Source of the DNA: Brachybacterium equifaecis
GTDB taxonomy: Bacteria > Actinomycetota > Actinomycetes > Actinomycetales > Dermabacteraceae
NCBI RefSeq assembly: GCF_023509525.1
Contig: NZ_JAKNCJ010000006.1
Location: 1 to 64,000 of the forward strand
Direction of reading: 5' to 3'
Length of the DNA stretch: 64,000 nucleotides
A program made the translations under genes and the position numbers. The stretch's first letter is position 1, and each line of letters starts with the position of its first letter. The notes beneath the pieces were generated by a model. That model saw only the letters and a list, made by a program, of their open reading frames with translations. It was not told where the DNA came from and ran no database searches. Below are positions 1,432 to 9,798 of the stretch, piece after piece.

Positions 1432-1458
1432 TTGACAGGCATCGATGCGCCGCATAGC
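1432..1458 (+). promoter_or_regulatory. candidate ars efflux promoter
   Basis: TTGACA (1432-1437) and CATAGC (1453-1458) are separated by 15 bp, between divergent arsR and the ACR3 gene. Transcription from here would begin near 1465, after the upstream ATG at 1445, so it supports the ATG at 1499 as the ACR3 start. The -10 match is weak and the spacer short; the ArsR operator is expected to overlap this region. Confidence 0.4.
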
Positions 1459-1498
1459 GTTCGGATCGATGATCGTCGATGGAAGGTGCCTGGGCCTG

Positions 1499-2590
1499 AT
1501 GAGTACGACCACCAAGGACGTGGAGCAGCCGCGCGTGATGAAGGAGATGTCCTTCCTCGATCGCTGGCTCCCGGTGTGGATCCTGGCCGCCATGGCCGTG
1601 GGGCTTCTGCTGGGGCGGTTCGTCCCCGGCCTGAACGCCGCCCTTGAGGCGGTGAAGATCGGGTCCGTGTCTCTGCCCATCGCGATCGGGCTGCTGTTGA
1701 TGATGTACCCGGTCCTGGCGAAGGTCCGCTACGACGAGACCCGGCGCATCGGCGCGGACCGACGCCTGCTGGTGACTTCGTTGGTGCTGAACTGGCTCGT
1801 CGGACCGGCCCTCATGTTCTGCCTCGCGTGGATCTTCCTGGCCGACCTGCCGGAGTACCGGACCGGTCTGATCATCGTGGGCCTCGCGCGCTGCATCGCG
1901 ATGGTGCTCATCTGGAACGACCTCGCCTGCGGTGACCGCGAAGCTGCCGCCGTGCTGGTCGCGATCAACTCCCTCTTCCAGGTGATCGCCTTCGGAGCCC
2001 TGGGCTGGTTCTACCTCCAGGCACTGCCGTCGTGGCTGGGGCTACCGACCACGTCGGCCGAGTTCTCGATCGGAGCGATCGTCCTCAGTGTGCTGGTCTT
2101 CCTCGGAATCCCCCTGGTCGCAGGGTTCCTGACCCGCGTCCTCGGTGAGCGGGCGAAGGGCAGGCAGTGGTACGAGGAGCGGTTCCTCCCGAAGATCGGC
2201 CCGTGGGCGCTGTACGGGCTGCTGTTCACCATCGTGCTGCTGTTCGCTCTCCAAGGCGACGCGATCCTCTCGTCCCCGGGAGACGTGGCCCGCATCGCTC
2301 TGCCGCTGCTGGTCTACTTCGTCGTCATGTTCCTGGGGTCCTTCCTGCTCGGACGGGCGATCGGCCTGAACTACGCCAAGTCCACGACCGTCGCGTTCAC
2401 GGCCTCGGGCAACAACTTCGAGCTCGCCATCGCCGTCGCCATTGGCACCTTCGGCGTCACCTCTGGCCAGGCCCTCGCCGGTGTCGTCGGTCCCTTGATC
2501 GAGGTCCCTGTCCTCGTCGCGCTCGTCTATGTCGCCCTCGCGATGGGCCGTCGGCTCTTCCCCGGCGACGCCACCGTCCCCACCCGATGA
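1499..2590 (+). CDS. acr3: ACR3-family arsenite efflux permease
   Basis: A 363-residue polytopic membrane protein with about ten hydrophobic segments. It expels arsenite (and probably antimonite) using the proton motive force. The signature GLARCIAMVLIWNDLACGD includes the essential cysteine (C132 here), and TASGNNFELAIA carries the conserved glutamate (E308). An in-frame ATG lies upstream at 1445, but 1499 is preferred: it follows GGAAGG (1481-1486), agrees with the candidate promoter, and gives the usual family length of about 350-370. It ends in ATGA at 2587-2590 and is first in an operon with the ArsC-like and flavoprotein genes. Confidence 0.95.
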   Translation: MSTTTKDVEQPRVMKEMSFLDRWLPVWILAAMAVGLLLGRFVPGLNAALEAVKIGSVSLPIAIGLLLMMYPVLAKVRYDETRRIGADRRLLVTSLVLNWLVGPALMFCLAWIFLADLPEYRTGLIIVGLARCIAMVLIWNDLACGDREAAAVLVAINSLFQVIAFGALGWFYLQALPSWLGLPTTSAEFSIGAIVLSVLVFLGIPLVAGFLTRVLGERAKGRQWYEERFLPKIGPWALYGLLFTIVLLFALQGDAILSSPGDVARIALPLLVYFVVMFLGSFLLGRAIGLNYAKSTTVAFTASGNNFELAIAVAIGTFGVTSGQALAGVVGPLIEVPVLVALVYVALAMGRRLFPGDATVPTR

Positions 2591-2613
2591 CCCGGCAGAG
2601 AGACCCGATTCCG

Positions 2614-3042
2614 ATGACAGCGATGCGCCCTTCTGTCCTGTTCGTGTGCGTGAAGAACGGCGGGAAGTCGCAGATGGCGGCCGCCCTGATGCGCCATCGC
2701 GCCGGCAGTGCCGTCGCCGTCCACTCCGCCGGGACGCGACCGGGGGGCTCGATCAATGCCGAGTCCGCTGCGGCGGTCGCCGAGGTCGGCGCCGACATGT
2801 CCGGGTCACACCCGCGGCCGGTCACGCCGGAGCTGCTGCGCAGCGTCGACCACGTGATCGTCCTCGGCAGCGAGGCGACCGTTGAACCCGTTCTCGGAAT
2901 GGCCGCCCCCATCACTACATGGCACACCGACGAGCCCTCTGAGCGCGGGATCGAGGGCATGGGGCGGATGCGATTGATCCGCGACGACATCGACGTCCGC
3001 GTGCAGGCTCTCCTGAGGGACCTCGCCGACTCCACCGACTGA
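2614..3042 (+). CDS. ArsC-like low-molecular-weight phosphatase-fold protein
   Basis: 142 residues with the LMW-PTP/arsenate reductase fold. The P-loop is FVCVKNGGKSQMAAALM: nucleophile C12, but lysine (K18) stands where the phosphate-binding arginine of CX5R normally is. The WHTDEPSERG segment takes the position of the general-acid loop. In actinobacterial ars operons such proteins reduce arsenate with mycothiol or thioredoxin; the Lys variant makes activity uncertain. The start at 2614 follows AGAGAGA (2597-2603) by ten bases; an alternative ATG at 2587 overlaps the ACR3 stop. Confidence 0.8.
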   Translation: MTAMRPSVLFVCVKNGGKSQMAAALMRHRAGSAVAVHSAGTRPGGSINAESAAAVAEVGADMSGSHPRPVTPELLRSVDHVIVLGSEATVEPVLGMAAPITTWHTDEPSERGIEGMGRMRLIRDDIDVRVQALLRDLADSTD

Positions 3043-3072
3043 TTCCGCAGGCTCTACAGCAAGGATCCCAGA

Positions 3073-4356
3073 GTGCCTATCGCCCCCACGTCCGAGCATC
3101 CCGTCATCGTCATTGGCGCCGGTCCCGTCGGACTGGCCGCCGCTGCGCACCTGTACGAGCGGAACCTGCCCTTCCTCGTCCTCGAAGCGGGCGCCTCCGC
3201 CGGGGCCGCAATCTCCGAGTGGGGACACACCCGTCTGTTCTCCACGTGGGGGTACAACATCGATACCGCCGCCCGGCGCCTCCTGGACGGACACGACTGG
3301 GAGGCCCCCTCGAGCAAGAGGCTGCCGTCCGGTCATGCGCTCCGAGAGGAGTACCTCGAGCCCTTGGCTCAGCTCCCCGAGCTCGCACCGTGCATCCGCT
3401 ACCGCGTACGGGTCATGGCCGTCTCTCGCTTCGGCAAGGACAAGACCCGCACCGCGGGCCGCAACACGACACCCTTCCTCGTCCGCATCCAGCATCCAGA
3501 CGGCACTCTCGAGGACCTCCTCGCATCCGCCGTCATCGACGCCTCGGGCACCTGGTCCCACCCCAACCCTCTTGGGCAGGCCGGCCTGCCCGCTCCCGGT
3601 GAGCAGGAGGCCCGGGCCACCGGGCGGATCACCCCGCCACTGCCCGACGTCCTCGGGCGCGACCGCGACAGGTTCGCCGGTCGCCATGTGATGGTCGTCG
3701 GTGCCGGACTCTCCGCCGCCAACACTCTCCTCGACCTGGCGAAGCTCGCCCAGGCAGAGCCCACCACCACGCTGACGTGGGCTGTGCGCACCACGGATCT
3801 CGCACGGGTCTACGGGGGTGGCGCGCGCGATGAGCTCGCCGCCCGCGGACTCCTCGGAAGCCGGCTGCGCAACCTCGTGGAGGCCGGCAAGGTCGAGGTC
3901 CTCACCTCCTTCACCATCACAGGCTTCACAATGGGAACGTCCTTGACCGTGCGCGCGGTTACGCCGGACGGCGATCGCGAGGTCGACGTCGATGTCGTGG
4001 CCTCGGCCACAGGCTTCCGACCGGACCACACGATGCTCTCTGAACTGCGCCTCCACCTCGACTCCGCCGTCGAGGCCCCTGCTCAGCTCGGCCCGCTCAT
4101 CGACCCCGAGTTCCACTCGTGCGGATCCGTCGAGCCCCACGGGGAACGGCTCCTCGCGCATCCTGACGAGAACTTCTACATCGTCGGAATGAAGAGCTAC
4201 GGGCGGGCACCGACGTTCCTCATGGCAACTGGGTACGAGCAGGTCCGCTCGATCGTCGCCGCCCTGGCCGGCGACCGCGCCGCCGCCGACGCTGTGGAGC
4301 TCGAACTGCCCCAGACCGGCGTCTGCTCGTCTGACATCGGCACCAGCTGCGGATAG
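3073..4356 (+). CDS. FAD/NAD(P)-dependent oxidoreductase, ArsO-like
   Basis: 427 residues. An FAD-binding GAGPVGLAAAAHL motif lies at about residues 16-28, and a second dinucleotide motif VVGAGLSAANTLLDLA near 210-225 gives the two-nucleotide-domain plan of flavin monooxygenases and TrkA-like flavoproteins. It is third in the ars operon, 30 bases after the ArsC-like gene; flavoproteins of this type (called ArsO in other ars operons) are a recurrent last gene whose substrate is not firmly settled. The start is GTG with AAGGA at 3061-3065. Function in arsenic resistance is inferred from context. Confidence 0.75.
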   Translation: MPIAPTSEHPVIVIGAGPVGLAAAAHLYERNLPFLVLEAGASAGAAISEWGHTRLFSTWGYNIDTAARRLLDGHDWEAPSSKRLPSGHALREEYLEPLAQLPELAPCIRYRVRVMAVSRFGKDKTRTAGRNTTPFLVRIQHPDGTLEDLLASAVIDASGTWSHPNPLGQAGLPAPGEQEARATGRITPPLPDVLGRDRDRFAGRHVMVVGAGLSAANTLLDLAKLAQAEPTTTLTWAVRTTDLARVYGGGARDELAARGLLGSRLRNLVEAGKVEVLTSFTITGFTMGTSLTVRAVTPDGDREVDVDVVASATGFRPDHTMLSELRLHLDSAVEAPAQLGPLIDPEFHSCGSVEPHGERLLAHPDENFYIVGMKSYGRAPTFLMATGYEQVRSIVAALAGDRAAADAVELELPQTGVCSSDIGTSCG

Positions 4357-4419: not shown

Positions 4420-4708
4420 TCAGGTGTCGGCCGTGGTGCGGCGCAGCTCGCGGTAGATGGTGGTGCGGGAGACGTTGAACAGCTCGGCCAGCTCGGCTTG
4501 GGTGTGCTCACCGGCGGCGTGCAACGTCAGCAGGTGCTTGCGCTGAGAGGGCGAGAGCTTGGGCTTCTTGCCTTTGAGTTTGCCCTTGGATCTGGCGATG
4601 GCCATGCCCTCGCGGGTGCGCAGGCGGATGAGGTCCGCCTCAAACTCGGCCACCATGCCGAGCACGTTGAACAGCAACCGGCCGACGGCGTCGTTGGGGT
4701 CGTAGACG
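4420..4708 (-). pseudogene. serine resolvase, 3' part (split by insertion)
   Basis: The minus-strand frame reads GSVYDPNDAVGRLLFNVLG then AEFEADLIRLRTREGMAIAR and ends with a Hin-type helix-turn-helix (TQAELAELFNVSRTTIYREL): the C-terminal half of a Tn3-type resolvase. The N-terminal half lies at 8364-8647 on the same strand. Joining them across one copy of CTGCCT gives a continuous 190-codon gene (ALSLGGSVYDPND at the seam). The ATG at 4677 would give only a partial protein without the catalytic serine. Confidence 0.93.
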
Positions 4709-4714
4709 CTGCCT
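4709..4714. repeat. target-site duplication, left copy
   Basis: CTGCCT, identical to 8364-8369. The pair brackets the IS21-like element; one copy belongs to the interrupted resolvase gene. Confidence 0.85.
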
Positions 4715-4764
4715 TGGTTGTGACAGCTTGGTTTGGCCCCGTTGTGACGGCCTGATCTGGCCCC
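4715..4764 (+). repeat. IS21-like left end with tandem terminal repeats L1 and L2
   Basis: L1 (4717-4740) and L2 (4741-4764) are adjacent 24-bp direct repeats, both GTTGTGAC...TGGCCCC, identical at 20 of 24 positions. Multiple terminal repeats of this kind are typical binding sites of IS21-family transposase. L1 pairs in inverted orientation with the right end at 8338-8363. Confidence 0.85.
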
Positions 4765-4798
4765 GCGTGCGACTTGCCGGGGTGTTGACGGTCTGAAC

Positions 4799-4823
4799 TG
4801 AAGCGCCCTGGGTTTCGTTCCGA
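4799..4823 (+). repeat. IS3 left inverted repeat
   Basis: 25 bp starting TGAAGCGCCC and ending TTCCGA. It is an exact reverse complement of 6084-6108. Confidence 0.95.
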
Positions 4824-4849
4824 CCTACTTCCTCAAGGAGGATCGGATC

Positions 4850-5170
4850 ATGCCCCAGAAGTACACCCCCGAGTTCAAGGCAAGAGCCCTGAAGCTCATC
4901 GAAGAACGCGTCCGCGCCGAGCAGTGCTCCGCCTGGGTCGCCTGCACGGCCGTCGGCGAAGCCCTCGGCGGGATCTCCCCACACACCCTGCGGAACTGGT
5001 GGAAGCAAGATCGCGTCGATCACGGTGAAGCCCCAGGGCTCAGCACCGCTGAAGCCGAGGAGATCAAGAAGCTGCGCCGGGAGAACCTCGAGCTGCGCCG
5101 CGCGAACGAGATCCTGCGCAAAGCCTCAGCTTTTTTCGCAGCGGAGCTCGACCGCCCCACGACGAGATGA
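4850..5170 (+). CDS. IS3-family transposase OrfA
   Basis: 106 residues: an N-terminal helix-turn-helix (about 1-55, with SPHTLRNWWKQD) followed by a leucine-zipper-like coiled coil (IKKLRRENLELRRANEILRK). It binds the element's inverted repeats and regulates transposition. It has a strong Shine-Dalgarno AAGGAGG about 9 bases before the ATG. It overlaps orfB by four bases and contains the slippery heptamer at 5131-5137 that can fuse the two into OrfAB. Confidence 0.95.
   Translation: MPQKYTPEFKARALKLIEERVRAEQCSAWVACTAVGEALGGISPHTLRNWWKQDRVDHGEAPGLSTAEAEEIKKLRRENLELRRANEILRKASAFFAAELDRPTTR
5131..5137 (+). promoter_or_regulatory. -1 ribosomal frameshift site (T TTT TTC)
   Basis: In the orfA frame the bases read gcT TTT TTC, a canonical X-XXY-YYZ heptamer. 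After a -1 slip, reading continues at 5137 (CGC AGC GGA GCT) with no stop into the orfB ATG at 5167. This would make the OrfAB transposase of IS3 elements. Confidence 0.75.
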
Positions 5171-6081
5171 TCGCGTTCATCGACGAACACCGCGATCAGT
5201 TCGGGGTCGAGGCCATCTGCCGCACCCTTCGTGCGACGGAATGTGGGTTCATCACCTCCCGCGGCTACCGCGCCGCGAAGCCACGACCCAGGTCTTCGAG
5301 AACGCTGCGGGACGAGATCCTCGTGGAGGAACTCCGCCGGATCCACGCGGAGAACTACAGCGTCTACGGCGTCCGAAAGATGCACCACGCGATGGCCCGC
5401 GCCGGGTGGGAGATCGGCCGGGACCAGGTCGCCCGACTGATGAAGCTCGCCGGCGTGGAAGGGGTGCGGCGCGGACGTAAGCCGATCACCACGAGGCCGA
5501 CAGGCGAGCTGGATGCCCGCCCAGATCTGGTCGAGCGCCGCTTCACCGCGGAAGGCCCGCACCAGCTCTGGGTCGCAGACATCACCTACGTGCGCACGAT
5601 CTCGGGGTTCTGCTACGTCGCTTTCATCACCGACGTGTACTCCCGGCGGATCGTGGGATGGGCGGTCTCGGGCAGCCTTCATACCGCGGGGCTGCCGTTG
5701 CTCGCCCTGGAGCACGCCCTCGTGAGCACCGGTGCAAGCCGTGGCCGCCAAGGCCTGGTGCACCACTCGGATCGCGGCAGCCAGTACGTCAGCTTGGCGT
5801 ACTCGGACGCGCTCATCACCGCCGGGGTGACGGCTTCGGTAGGCACCGTGGGCGACTCCTACGACAACGCCCTGGCCGAGACCGTGAACGGGCTCTACAA
5901 GGCCGAGCTCATCCACTCCAAGCGGATCTGGGAGTCCGTCGAGGCGGTCGAACTGGCCACCATGGGGTGGGCGCACTGGTGGAACACCGCCCGCCTCCAC
6001 GAGACCCTCGGCTACCGCACTCCCGCAGAGGTCGAGGCCGCCTACACTCACGATCAGGATTCAGCGCCCGTCGCGTCCTGA
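5167..6081 (+). CDS. IS3-family transposase OrfB (DDE integrase core)
   Basis: 304 residues. An N-terminal HTH_21-type region (ENYSVYGVRKMHHAM) precedes an rve integrase core. The DDE triad is visible: D in LWVADITYV, D in HHSDRGSQYVS, and E in YDNALAETVNGLYK. The ending (WWNTARLHETLGYRTPAE) is the usual IS3 C-terminus, so the gene appears intact. It overlaps orfA by ATGA and is best made as a frameshift fusion with it. Confidence 0.96.
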   Translation: MIAFIDEHRDQFGVEAICRTLRATECGFITSRGYRAAKPRPRSSRTLRDEILVEELRRIHAENYSVYGVRKMHHAMARAGWEIGRDQVARLMKLAGVEGVRRGRKPITTRPTGELDARPDLVERRFTAEGPHQLWVADITYVRTISGFCYVAFITDVYSRRIVGWAVSGSLHTAGLPLLALEHALVSTGASRGRQGLVHHSDRGSQYVSLAYSDALITAGVTASVGTVGDSYDNALAETVNGLYKAELIHSKRIWESVEAVELATMGWAHWWNTARLHETLGYRTPAEVEAAYTHDQDSAPVAS

Positions 6082-6083
6082 CC

Positions 6084-6108
6084 TCGGAACGAAACCCAGG
6101 GCGCTTCA
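6084..6108 (-). repeat. IS3 right inverted repeat
   Basis: 25 bp ending GGGCGCTTCA, the exact reverse complement of 4799-4823. Its last base abuts the truncated istB reading frame. Confidence 0.95.
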
Positions 6109-6555
6109 CTGTGCCTGCTCGGGGACTCTGGTACCGGCAAATCCCACCTGCTCATCGCGCTCGGCACCGCCGCCGCCGAACAGGGCTACCGCGTCCGCTA
6201 CACGCTGGCCACCCGGCTCGTGAACGAGCTCGTCGAAGCCGCCGACGAGAAACAACTCACCAAGACCATCAACCGCTACGGACGAGTGGACCTGCTCGTG
6301 ATCGACGAACTCGGCTACATGGAACTCGACCGGCGCGGCGCCGAGCTGCTGTTCCAGGTTCTCACCGAACGGGAGGAGAAGAACGCCATCGCGATCGCCT
6401 CGAACCAGTCCTTCTCCGCCTGGACCGACACCTTCACCGACCCACGACTGTGCGCAGCGATCGTCGACCGACTCACCTACAACGCCACCATCATCGAGAC
6501 CGGCACCCAGTCCTACCGCCTCGCCCACACCCGAGCCCGCAATCAGGCCAGCTGA
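6109..6555 (+). pseudogene. istB: istB-like transposition ATPase, 5' truncated
   Basis: The frame opens directly at the IS3 boundary with LCLLGDSGTGKSHLLIALG, a Walker A motif, and continues to Walker B (LLVIDELGYMELD) and the NQSFSAWTDTFTD segment typical of IstB, the AAA+ helper of IS21-family transposases. The start codon and about 100 N-terminal residues are missing; the first internal ATG is at 6220. IstA is absent. The remnant identifies the parent element as IS21 family. Confidence 0.93.
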
Positions 6556-6618
6556 ACAGGTGCGTGAGCATCCGACTCCGCCGAGTACGGAGCAACCGCG
6601 CTTCGTTAGGGTGACGCC

Positions 6619-7488
6619 ATGACCATTGCGAGCCCGTGGGCGCAGGAGGCCGTGTCCTACGTGGACGCCCTGTGCCAGGGTTCTCCGCTGCCACGCGACC
6701 TGCGGATCACGCTCAACTTCCACCCCGACCGGTCCACCGACGGCGTCGGGATCTTGGACGCCCTGGCCGCCCAGGGCGAGTACCGGTCCCAGTTCGAGAC
6801 CGGCACCAGCAACGGCGGACTCACCGCGCATCCCGGCGGCGACCGATGGCTGTGGGAGCAATCGCTGTTTGGCGGCGCCTACGACGACGCGCCTGCAGCC
6901 GAACGCCCCAAGTACGGTGCTCTCAACCACCGCCACCGCGCCCTCGGAGGCGCCCCGCGCTTCGGCTCCAGCCACCTACGGCTACGACAGCACATGCTCG
7001 ACCGGGCAACCTACTGCTTCCCCGACTCCGCCTACCGACCCACGCACTTCGCCACCGCCCAGCACTTCGACCTCCTGCCCCTGGCCGCGGTACAAGACCA
7101 AGCGCTCGAGCGCAACCCGGACGGCGAGAACTTCGACCCCTTGGACGGCTACGTCGAGGCCCACGCCCACGGCCGCATCTCCTTGCGTGACGATGTCGAA
7201 GCGATCGTGATGGATCCCTGCTTCCGGCACACCGACATCGAGGCTGCTGCTCACCGGCTCGGGCTCCCCGTGGAATGGAACGAGGGCCGTGTCCTCGACC
7301 TTTCCACCTTGGACACGCACGCCGACTACCGCGGCCCGGCTCCGGTCACCGTGGGCCACGCCATCGCGCAGGACGGGCTGCTGGACGCGCGGATCATCGG
7401 CCTGGCGGTGAGCACCGGACGCTTCGCCCCGCAGCACCTCAAGCAGCTCTGGCACCTCACGGCCCAGTGGGGCCAACCCCGAGGATGA
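6619..7488 (+). CDS. DUF3626 domain protein (cargo gene)
   Basis: 289 residues covering one domain. FHPDR (about 33-37), SQFETGTSNGGLTAHPGGDR and the RPKYGALNHRH segment are what I recognise as DUF3626 signatures. No function is established. It starts 63 bases after the istB remnant and reads in the same direction; no signal peptide or membrane segment is seen. It lies inside the IS21-like ends, so it moves with the element. Conserved Asp/His/Arg residues suggest an enzyme or nucleotide-binding protein, but this is a guess. Confidence 0.75.
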   Translation: MTIASPWAQEAVSYVDALCQGSPLPRDLRITLNFHPDRSTDGVGILDALAAQGEYRSQFETGTSNGGLTAHPGGDRWLWEQSLFGGAYDDAPAAERPKYGALNHRHRALGGAPRFGSSHLRLRQHMLDRATYCFPDSAYRPTHFATAQHFDLLPLAAVQDQALERNPDGENFDPLDGYVEAHAHGRISLRDDVEAIVMDPCFRHTDIEAAAHRLGLPVEWNEGRVLDLSTLDTHADYRGPAPVTVGHAIAQDGLLDARIIGLAVSTGRFAPQHLKQLWHLTAQWGQPRG

Positions 7489-7576
7489 CAACGTATGGGA
7501 GGCCCAGAGAGTCAGCAGCATCGCGTTCAACTCATCCGATCCTGCCGCCGACCGCCTCTCGGAGCGGCCGCGTGAC

Positions 7577-8263
7577 ATGCTCGGGTTCATGGATCCAAGA
7601 CGCGCGCAAAACGGCCTGATCCGCACAGCAGTCCAAGGCCTCAACACGGCCAACCAGCGTCACCCCTGGAGCCACAACGATGCCTTCCACTCATGGATCC
7701 TGACCCGAGCTCCCGCCCGAAGGGGCCTAGCGATTGACATCGGCTGCGGCCGAGGCGAGCTGGCCGCGATCCTGGCCAACCACTTCTCCACCGTCCACGC
7801 CCTCGACACCGACCCCGACATGCGAAGGGCCACGGGCCAACGCTGCGCAGGACTGGCCAACGTGCATGTCGAGAACGTCCCCCTCGACGACCTGCCACAG
7901 GACGCAGACCAGATCACCATGATCGCGGTCCTTCACCACCTAGACCTGGATACGGCGCTGCGACAGGTCAGCCACTCGCTCGCGCCTGGAGGACGCTTCC
8001 TGTGTGTCGGACTTGCCCGACTGGACGGGCCAACCGACATCGCGTGGGACCTCGCCTGCGCTCTCACCAATCCAGTCATCGGCTACATCCGCCATCCATG
8101 GCCGGCCGACAGCGCCGCGACAGAGGCTCCCATCCCCACCAAGGAACCCCGGCAGTCAGTGGACCAGATCCGCGAAGCCCTGGACCGCCTGATGCCCGGC
8201 GCCGTCCTACGACGCCGACTGGCGTTCCGCTACACCATCGAATGGACCAAGCCCCTCCAATAG
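7577..8263 (+). CDS. class I SAM-dependent methyltransferase (cargo gene)
   Basis: 228 residues with a Rossmann methyltransferase fold: motif I AIDIGCGRGELAAIL (about 52-66), the acidic residue of motif II in VHALDTDPDM, and the post-motif MIAVLHHLDLDTALRQ. The type resembles small-molecule methyltransferases (UbiE/Tam-like) rather than DNA methylases; no NPPY or DPPY motif is present. It is 88 bases after the DUF3626 gene and ends 100 bases before the element's right end. The ATG at 7589 is an alternative start. Substrate unknown. Confidence 0.8.
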   Translation: MLGFMDPRRAQNGLIRTAVQGLNTANQRHPWSHNDAFHSWILTRAPARRGLAIDIGCGRGELAAILANHFSTVHALDTDPDMRRATGQRCAGLANVHVENVPLDDLPQDADQITMIAVLHHLDLDTALRQVSHSLAPGGRFLCVGLARLDGPTDIAWDLACALTNPVIGYIRHPWPADSAATEAPIPTKEPRQSVDQIREALDRLMPGAVLRRRLAFRYTIEWTKPLQ

Positions 8264-8312
8264 GACCAACACGTTCCTATGCCGCACTCAGGACGTGGCG
8301 CCAGCGTCCGGG

Positions 8313-8363
8313 TGGTCCCCAATCTGGCCGTCATCGCGGGGCCAGATCAGGTTGACATAGCCA
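8313..8363 (-). repeat. IS21-like right end with inner repeat
   Basis: The terminal 26 bp (8338-8363, reading GGGGCCAGATCAG...TAGCCA) match the left end inverted at 19 of 26 positions. A second copy, CCCCAATCTGGCCGTCA at 8317-8333, resembles the reverse complement of L2 with one gap and one substitution in its core. Two repeats at each end fit IS21-family structure. Confidence 0.75.
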
Positions 8364-8369
8364 CTGCCT
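8364..8369. repeat. target-site duplication, right copy
   Basis: CTGCCT, identical to 4709-4714. Confidence 0.85.
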
Positions 8370-8647
8370 CCGAGACTGAGCGCCACTCCCTTGATGGTGA
8401 GCTCGTCGGCGATGTCCCTCGCGTCCGGGAGCGAGCGGGCCAGCCGGTCGAGCTTGGTCACCACCAGGGTGTCCCCATCCCGGGTCGCGGCCAGTGCCTC
8501 GCGCAGCCCGGGCCGGGCGCGGGTCGTTCCCGTTAGACCGTGGTCGAAGTAGACGTTCTTGTTCTCGACTCCGAGGCGCTCGAGTGCTTCCCGTTGGGCG
8601 GAGAGGTCTTGCTCGAGAGTCGAGACGCGCGCGTAGCCGACATGCAT
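8364..8647 (-). pseudogene. serine resolvase, 5' part (split by insertion)
   Basis: From ATG at 8647 the frame reads MHVGYARVSTLEQDLSAQRE, with the catalytic serine of YARVST at residue 9, and LVVTKLDRLARS, the resolvase/invertase catalytic core. After ALSLGGS it runs into the inserted element and ends at 8288 with unrelated residues. The missing DNA-binding half lies at 4420-4708. With the insertion removed, 284 + 289 bases give exactly 191 codons including the stop, normal for a Tn3-type resolvase. Confidence 0.93.
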
Positions 8648-8714: not shown

Positions 8715-8810
8715 ATCCCTCATAAAAAGTCGTTGAGGAGGAAGCTCGCACGACGTACGGTGAAGGATCCCCTTACGGGCATGCGATCTGGGCTGACGCC
8801 TGTGACCGAG

Positions 8811-8838
8811 TGTTCAGTGCGCGCTGTATAGTTCAGTC
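8811..8838 (+). promoter_or_regulatory. candidate cmtR-cadD promoter/operator
   Basis: TATAGT (8827-8832) is an excellent -10 element only seven bases before the cmtR ATG, so the transcript would be leaderless or nearly so. Two direct copies of GTTCAGT (starting about 8812 and 8831) flank it and could be the repressor operator. Confidence 0.5.
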
Positions 8839-8839
8839 C

Positions 8840-9199
8840 ATGCTGACTATTGCTTCGCGTCTCGACGTGATGAACCGCCTGGGTCGTGCACTGGCCGACC
8901 CCACTCGATCCCGGATCATCTTGACCCTGCTCGACCATCCCGCTTACCCGGCGGAACTGGCCCGAGATCTGGACCTGACACGCCCGAACGTGTCCAACCA
9001 CCTGGCATGCCTGCGCGATTGCGGGATCGTCGTCTCCGAGCCCGAGGGTCGTCGGACACGATATGAGATCGCCGATTCGCACCTGGCGCAGGCGCTGACG
9101 GCACTGGTCGATGCCACCCTGGCAGTGGACGAAGACGCCCCGTGCATCGATCCCGCCTGCTCGCTTCCCGGATGCGACGCAGCTGGGGAGGGCGCATGA
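8840..9199 (+). CDS. cmtR: CmtR-type Cd(II)/Pb(II)-sensing ArsR-family repressor
   Basis: 119 residues closely following the plan of mycobacterial CmtR: RLGRALADPTRSRI, LTRPNVSNHLACLRDCG and EGRRTRYEIADSHLAQAL. Numbering from this ATG places cysteines at C57, C61 and C102, the three metal ligands known in CmtR, which also fixes the start (an in-frame ATG at 8810 would shift them). It should repress its own operon until Cd(II) or Pb(II) binds. It overlaps cadD by ATGA. Confidence 0.9.
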   Translation: MLTIASRLDVMNRLGRALADPTRSRIILTLLDHPAYPAELARDLDLTRPNVSNHLACLRDCGIVVSEPEGRRTRYEIADSHLAQALTALVDATLAVDEDAPCIDPACSLPGCDAAGEGA

Positions 9200-9798
9200 T
9201 CCTCACCTCGGTCTTGCAGGCGATGGGCCTGTTCGCAGCGACCAACATCGACGACATCATCGTGCTCTCCCTCTTCTGCGCGCGAGGGGCAAGCCAGCGC
9301 GGCACTACCGCCCGCATTCTGGCCGGCCAGTACCTCGGATTCGCCGGCATCCTCGGTGCCGCGGTCCTGGCGACCATCGGTGCCGGAGCATTCCTGCCCT
9401 CGGCAGCCATCCCGTACTTCGGTCTCATCCCTCTGGGCCTCGGCCTCTGGGCCGCATGGCAGGCCTGGCGCGGAGACGATGACGACGATGACGACGAGGC
9501 CAAGGTTGCCGGCAAGAAGGTCGGCGTGTGGACAGTCGCAGGCGTCACCCTTGCCAACGGCGGCGACAACATCGGCGTCTACACCCCTGTCTTCCTCAGC
9601 GTGGAACCTCTCGCAGTAGTCGCCTACTGCATCGTCTTCCTCGCGCTCGTCGCGGTCCTGGTGGCCCTGGCAAAGTTCGTCGCCACCCGCCCCCCGATCG
9701 CCGAAGCGCTCGAACGCTGGGAGCACATCCTCTTCCCCATCGTTCTCATCGGCCTCGGCATCGTGATTCTCGTCAGCGGCGGAGCCTTCGGACTCTGA
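9196..9798 (+). CDS. cadD: CadD-family cadmium resistance transporter
   Basis: A 200-residue membrane protein with about five or six transmembrane segments. The signature AATNIDDIIVLSLFCARG at the first segment and LANGGDNIGVYTPVF later are the acidic repeat motifs of CadD proteins (LysE-like superfamily). A run of seven aspartates (RGDDDDDDDEAK, about residues 94-105) forms an acidic loop between halves. The start at 9196 shares ATGA with the cmtR stop; the upstream in-frame ATG at 9142 lies inside cmtR and is rejected. Function is efflux of Cd(II), inferred from family and the CmtR partner. Confidence 0.9.
   Translation: MILTSVLQAMGLFAATNIDDIIVLSLFCARGASQRGTTARILAGQYLGFAGILGAAVLATIGAGAFLPSAAIPYFGLIPLGLGLWAAWQAWRGDDDDDDDEAKVAGKKVGVWTVAGVTLANGGDNIGVYTPVFLSVEPLAVVAYCIVFLALVAVLVALAKFVATRPPIAEALERWEHILFPIVLIGLGIVILVSGGAFGL

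Follow-up and report, generated by a model that had tools for sequence, protein, structure and literature searches.

Positions 1 to 64,000 of contig NZ_JAKNCJ010000006.1 from Brachybacterium equifaecis (assembly GCF_023509525.1), hereafter the window, contain two halves of one serine resolvase gene separated by 3,649 bp. The question raised by this locus is whether the intervening DNA, from 4715 to 8363, is a transposon that carries passenger genes of its own. An original prediction, made from the sequence, had described it as an apparently undescribed IS21-type transposon unit whose passengers, one DUF3626 gene and one methyltransferase gene, lie between istB and the right end. The analysis below supports a bounded IS21-type unit with cargo. 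The copy in the window is a disarmed one, and its combination of DUF3626 and methyltransferase genes was found only once. We conclude that 4715-8363 is very probably a non-autonomous remnant of an IS21-type cargo transposon.

The unit begins with TG and ends with CA, and the predicted coordinates proved exact to the base. The 26-bp imperfect inverted repeats, the duplication CTGCCT, and the inner repeats at both ends were all recovered (Table 1). Each end of the element has copies of a 23-bp module at offsets 4 and 28; the module was taken from the left copy at offset 28, which therefore matches at 23/23 by construction. Among 1,000 shuffles the best module match was 16/23 and the 99th percentile was 15, which places the weakest right copy only at the 99% level. 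In a control on the end pairs, 20 shuffles of the DNA downstream in the window gave 15/26 with a 6-bp duplication three times and 16/26 never, and 680 shuffles of other loci gave at least 16/26 in 7 cases and at least 18/26 in 1. The right end of the unit is fixed because it is flanked by its target duplication. The features that define IS21-type ends (TG...CA, a target duplication of 4 to 8 bp, and multiple end repeats) are thus all present, the second right repeat being weak. The right end also resembles sites beside mer genes on Rhodococcus and Mycobacterium plasmids (82.1% over 56 bp). A strict right-end pattern with one mismatch allowed matched only the window among 396 genomes of the order, after which plasmid records were used to find relatives.

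The prediction that the insert splits a single 573-base resolvase gene was confirmed by an uninterrupted homolog. Microbacterium plasmid NZ_CP012699.1 carries the same recombinase gene whole, 573 bp long and with a single CTGCCT, and the two halves in the window (295 and 278 bases) are identical to it at 284/295 and 274/278 positions. A second whole resolvase gene, 91.0% and 93.7% identical to the halves by BLAST, is found on Cutibacterium modestum plasmid NZ_CP017041.1, where the insertion site reads CTGCCG. No genome was found in which the cargo genes stand beside the resolvase without the terminal repeats, an arrangement that had been named as evidence against the prediction. The split resolvase is most likely dead because the insertion parts most of the catalytic domain from the DNA-binding domain.

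The istA-istB unit implied by the prediction is not intact. No istA was found in the window element, the corresponding span being gone relative to an IS21 element of Gordonia sihwensis; an IS3-family element stands in its place, and the remaining istB sequence matches positions 94-236 of the 238 in the IstB_IS21 model. The features of IS3 membership (OrfA and OrfB, an IS3 transposase, and matched inverted ends) are all present at 4799-6108. This nested element accounts for 1,310 of the 3,649 bp and is 96.9% identical over 1,310 bp to a copy on a Micrococcus plasmid. Compared with the Gordonia element, the window copy lacks 2,103 bp that hold the whole of istA and the beginning of istB, and the gap coincides exactly with the ends of the IS3-family element. 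The third left repeat, in which that element sits, is whole in Gordonia at offset 69 (18/23). Neither the window copy of the IS3-family element nor three others (L013, L014, and L121) has a 3-bp target duplication at the inverted repeats, and the missing duplication was dropped as a sign of a linked deletion because those three other copies also lack one.

Across the 23 contigs of the draft genome, only the istB remnant gives a strong IstB match. Two weaker matches, one in a frame of 754 aa that exceeds the family cut-off at 43 bits and one in a frame of 557 aa, were taken as other ATPases. Since istA is absent, istB is truncated, and there is no other strong IstB in the genome, the window copy should not be able to make its own transposase or move by itself, and any further movement would need IstA and IstB from elsewhere. 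It is filed here as an IS21-derived remnant rather than as a complete IS21 member because it has no istA.

The closest relative found is the element on Gordonia sihwensis plasmid NZ_CP121249.1 (L075). Its left 84 bp are 98.8% identical to those of the window, and the 3' part of istB is 89.8% identical in nucleotides and 94% in amino acids. Its right end lies 6,416 bp beyond istB and is flanked by the duplication CTCGGT. The intervening cargo comprises MerR, Vsr, sulfate permease, oleate hydratase, 3-hydroxyacyl-CoA dehydrogenase, and TetR genes, and a seventh, hypothetical gene crosses the right end. This plasmid record contains the element twice within a repeated segment of ~24.4 kb with the same left flank, either by tandem duplication or as an assembly effect, and for their shared left flank the two copies were counted as one insertion.

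Evidence that such elements transpose together with their cargo came from a 7,183-bp unit with mercury resistance genes. It is found in Rhodococcus fascians, on a Mycobacterium dioxanotrophicus plasmid (99.8% identical), and in a genome of the same class as the window's (L125, 99.9%), with duplications AGCGAG, TACTCA, and CGAGAA at the three sites. No similarity was detected in the 300 bp on either side of the unit between the Rhodococcus and Mycobacterium sites. Whole units therefore move with their cargo, because one unit occupies three sites with three different 6-bp duplications. The Cnuibacter copy of a related Paenarthrobacter mer element (99.5% over 4,498 bp) has other flanks and no duplication.

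Twenty loci (the window plus 19 from plasmid records, chosen from the best matches and not at random) were scanned for paired ends. Ends matching at 16/26 or better with a 6-bp duplication were found in 9 of the 20: the window, Gordonia, two Paenarthrobacter loci with the same flanks, Glaciihabitans, Rhodococcus fascians, Nocardia, Tsukamurella, and Arthrobacter agilis. A tenth locus, L118, had its ends placed separately from the scan. Apart from the window, clear cargo genes are present in Gordonia, Paenarthrobacter, and Rhodococcus. The Paenarthrobacter unit (duplication GACTCG) carries a heavy-metal regulator, merA, and an IS5 element, and that of Rhodococcus fascians, with repeats at offsets 4 and 28, carries merA, merB, and other genes. 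One hypothetical gene and one helix-turn-helix gene follow istB in Arthrobacter agilis; Nocardia and Tsukamurella (L113) have 648 bp and 334 bp beyond istB, each with one hypothetical gene; and only a nested IS256 element lies between istB and the right end in Glaciihabitans.

A corresponding scan covered 394 genomes of the class; IstB matches at E 1e-80 occurred in 31 of them, among these the genome of the window. Of the 36 matches listed, the one in the window and another (G599) at the edge of its contig were excluded; several of the remaining 34 loci were cut by contig ends, and 4 had no istA match. Ends at 17/26 or better with a 6-bp duplication were found in five of the 34: L125, which is the mer unit, L128, L145, L136, and L152. 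Past istB, L128 and L145 have 149 bp and 75 bp, respectively, which leaves no room for cargo, and L136 has 849 bp. L152 (ends 21/26, duplication GCGCCG) has 2,740 bp beyond istB with two cargo frames; by their translations, one reads as a short-chain dehydrogenase and the other as a LuxR-type regulator.

Several candidate ends were not counted in either scan. L035 reached a chance-level 15/26, and its ends as set outside the scan have no duplication. L042 (Mycobacterium avium) has BLAST-set ends with the duplication CATCGG, starts with TCT, and so fails the TG rule; it is not among the nine. L127, at 16/26 in the class-genome scan, was also left aside. Duplications of 4, 5, 7, or 8 bp at 18/26 or better, a search that carried no control, appeared at L126, L127, L136, L137 (8 bp, 26/26), and L143 (7 bp), and none was counted.

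The possibility raised against the prediction, that full-length IS21 elements end elsewhere, applies to L128, L145, and L113, which end soon past istB; in the cargo-bearing relatives the right end is 1.4 to 6.4 kb beyond istB, with cargo in between. The accompanying statement that IS21-family elements rarely carry passenger genes does not hold at least for the present actinobacterial group, which has several cargo-bearing relatives. The database records examined for the relatives annotate only istA and istB as the element and leave the cargo as separate genes.

Both predicted cargo genes are present between the istB tail and the right end (Table 1). Relatives of the DUF3626 gene are found in 46 of 297 genomes of the order, the window's own included. 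At E 1e-20, DUF3626 relatives occur in 38 plasmid records and relatives of the methyltransferase in 12, with identities below 60% throughout; in the single record that contains both, NZ_CP109328.1, they are far from each other. The one examined of the 38 DUF3626-bearing records, a Rhodococcus pseudokoreensis plasmid, has two DUF3626 genes and no IS21 gene annotated in 18.8 kb. No DUF3626 relatives were found in viral contigs. Another DUF3626 gene of B. equifaecis lies on contig C1 at ~162,200-164,600 (L012, 6207-8577) and is interrupted by a transposase gene, ISL3-type as judged from its translation; a nearby frame reads, by its translation, as a heavy-metal P-type ATPase.

The Salmonella effector SopF modifies a host protein by ADP-ribosylation. 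PMC6682159 gives DUF3626 as one of the domains in SopF, and an ADP-ribosylation-type activity of the cargo protein would be a weak guess; no function is assigned because the link to SopF is a shared Pfam name only. A search of solved structures with the DUF3626 protein gave a best E value of 0.41 (7dn8 chain C, a putative cytoplasmic protein), from which no function is claimed, and no PADLOC model matched it. PADLOC did match the methyltransferase (mad2) and the istB tail (DrmD), and these were taken as shared-domain hits. The product of the second cargo gene is, judged by its family, an enzyme. Its relatives in genome contigs occur at 31 loci, 30 of them at 40-61% identity; L074, a 27% match, gave no match under a stricter check. 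Twelve aligned members share many invariant residues, and the alignment suggests a tight family. Brachybacterium timonense (L054) has this family as two nearby copies.

The history that best accommodates these observations would begin with an element that had IS21 ends, istA-istB, and the DUF3626-methyltransferase cargo. Its target would have been a serine resolvase gene with cadmium and arsenic genes nearby, where the insertion duplicated CTGCCT. An IS3-family element would then have entered the third left repeat, and comparison with Gordonia shows that everything between this repeat and mid-istB has been lost; this loss of istA and the start of istB would have followed the resolvase insertion. 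Several results weigh against such a history. Neither IstB nor DUF3626 occurs in the fetched flanks of any of the 31 methyltransferase loci, IstB is not near any of 48 further loci (flanks of ~1.5 kb, some genes fetched twice), and neither DUF3626 nor the methyltransferase occurs at any of the 34 IstB loci from class genomes. Since the pair was found nowhere else, the joint travel of both cargo genes with an IS21 core rests on one copy. The scans set ends in only 9 of the first 20 loci and 5 of the 34 class-genome loci, and L128, L145, and Tsukamurella L113, with 334 bp or less past istB, have no real cargo. The Gordonia terminal match of 16/26 is by itself no better than chance, since 7 of 680 shuffles reached that value, as did at least 4 of 400 in the control of the 20-locus scan; its right end is supported also by a 54-bp match to the window right end (E 4e-8). 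Relative to Gordonia, the left end of the window element is identical at 59/60 positions and the right end at only 43/60, so that the two ends may, from this comparison, have different histories.

One alternative is that an IS21 core inserted alone and that the cargo arrived later, by separate recombination or insertion, in a unit that never transposed whole. That the cargo pair is known from the window copy only, that some relatives (L128 and L145) are cargo-free, and that the left end is closer to Gordonia than the right end would all fit it. However, no long repeat pair (minimum length, 14) surrounds the cargo, the short two-copy matches there looking like chance; the right end bears terminal repeats with a matching duplication; and a related unit has moved whole with its cargo in the same position. 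We regard late arrival of the cargo as quite unlikely. Somewhat less unlikely, and overlapping the history above in all but the order of events, is that the IS3-family event came first and the disarmed element was then mobilized into the resolvase by IstA and IstB acting in trans. Both ends and the duplication are intact, as trans mobilization requires; no other strong IS21-type IstB is present in the draft genome, although a helper could have been on a lost plasmid. That the ends and duplication are merely a chance pairing around unrelated genes might be argued from the imperfect terminal match (19/26), but the shuffle controls, the homologous ends in relatives, and the whole resolvase gene with its single CTGCCT on NZ_CP012699.1 leave this explanation next to no chance.

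Insertion of a cargo-bearing IS21-type unit, later disarmed, remains the preferred reading of 4715-8363. A broader proposal, to which we give about even chances, is that an actinobacterial IS21 lineage consists of unit transposons in which the left end and istA-istB are kept while a right module (cargo plus right end) is exchanged, the window copy being a disarmed example with new DUF3626-methyltransferase cargo. If this lineage routinely carries exchangeable cargo, many istB-adjacent genes on actinobacterial plasmids would be parts of mobile units, the limits of which could be found from end repeats and 6-bp duplications. It is the lineage, more than the window copy, that shows IS21 elements acting as cargo transposons; what the window contributes is a further cargo type and a clear example of how a unit is disarmed. 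In the accessible literature on IS21 with passenger genes or mercury resistance we recognized no description of IS21-based unit transposons, which is weak evidence of novelty as most subscription papers and ISfinder were outside its scope.

The surroundings of the split resolvase appear composite. As in the window, the whole gene on NZ_CP012699.1 is followed by genes for an ArsR-type regulator and for a cadmium resistance transporter. The resolvase region looks like a mosaic because the similarity to the Microbacterium plasmid stops ~60 bp beyond the resolvase. On one flank of the element, window positions 1445-4356 contain arsenic genes (an ACR3 pump and a flavin oxidoreductase); on the other, positions 8810-9798 contain a CmtR-type regulator and a CadD-like transporter, the latter below the NCBIfam cut-off. 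The Cutibacterium modestum plasmid (L117) also has an IS21-type istB (88.9% over the match) beside an arsenic operon, and the scan gave no ends there.

Table 1. Positions of the IS21-type remnant, its nested element, its cargo, and the split resolvase gene in the window
Feature	Position	Strand	Remarks
Serine resolvase gene, 3' part (end of catalytic domain and helix-turn-helix)	4420..4714	-	PF00239 positions 103-144; PF02796
Left target duplication CTGCCT	4709..4714		6 bp
Left terminal inverted repeat	4715..4740	+	19/26 matching the right one
Left end, sub-terminal repeat 1	4719..4741	+	19/23 to module
Left end, sub-terminal repeat 2	4743..4765	+	source copy of 23-bp module
Left end, repeat 3 (start), interrupted by IS3-family element	4784..4798	+	from Gordonia comparison
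Nested IS3-family element	4799..6108	+	25-bp perfect inverted repeats, 4799-4823 / 6084-6108
OrfA of IS3-family element	4850-5170	+	31.9 bits alone
OrfB of IS3-family element	5167-6081	+	NF033516, 273.6 bits (cut-off 160)
istB remnant, C-terminal	6109..6555	+	148 codons plus stop; N-terminal part lost
Cargo gene 1, DUF3626 protein	6619..7488	+	289 aa; PF12294, 212 bits
Cargo gene 2, class I S-adenosylmethionine (SAM)-dependent methyltransferase	7577..8263	+	228 aa; family match
Right end, sub-terminal repeat 2	8313..8335	-	weak, 15/23
Right end, sub-terminal repeat 1	8337..8359	-	19/23
Right terminal inverted repeat	8338..8363	-	pairs with 4715..4740
Right target duplication CTGCCT	8364..8369		6 bp
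Serine resolvase gene, 5' part (most of catalytic domain)	8364..8647	-	PF00239 positions 2-96 of 145

Canonical IS21 elements have TG...CA ends, repeated end sequences, target duplications of 4 to 8 bp, and genes in the order istA-istB. The window element shares the TG...CA ends, the end repeats, and a 6-bp duplication, and it differs in having cargo, no istA, and a truncated istB. Transporter IS (tIS) are IS derivatives with passenger genes (PMC9330008). As in the window element, these genes lie within the inverted repeats of a single IS; the parts of PMC9330008 available to us name no IS21-based example, and the window copy, in a further difference, has lost its transposase. The Gordonia element resembles that of the window in its left end, its istB, its 6-bp duplication, and the position of its cargo between istB and the right end, whereas its istA and istB are annotated as complete, its cargo is wholly different, and it has no IS3-family element at that place. 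The mer-carrying IS21 units of Rhodococcus fascians, Mycobacterium dioxanotrophicus, and Paenarthrobacter share with it the arrangement of IS21 genes followed by cargo and right end, with 6-bp duplications; unlike the window element they carry mercury resistance as cargo, and one of them, the unit of 7,183 bp, occupies three sites.

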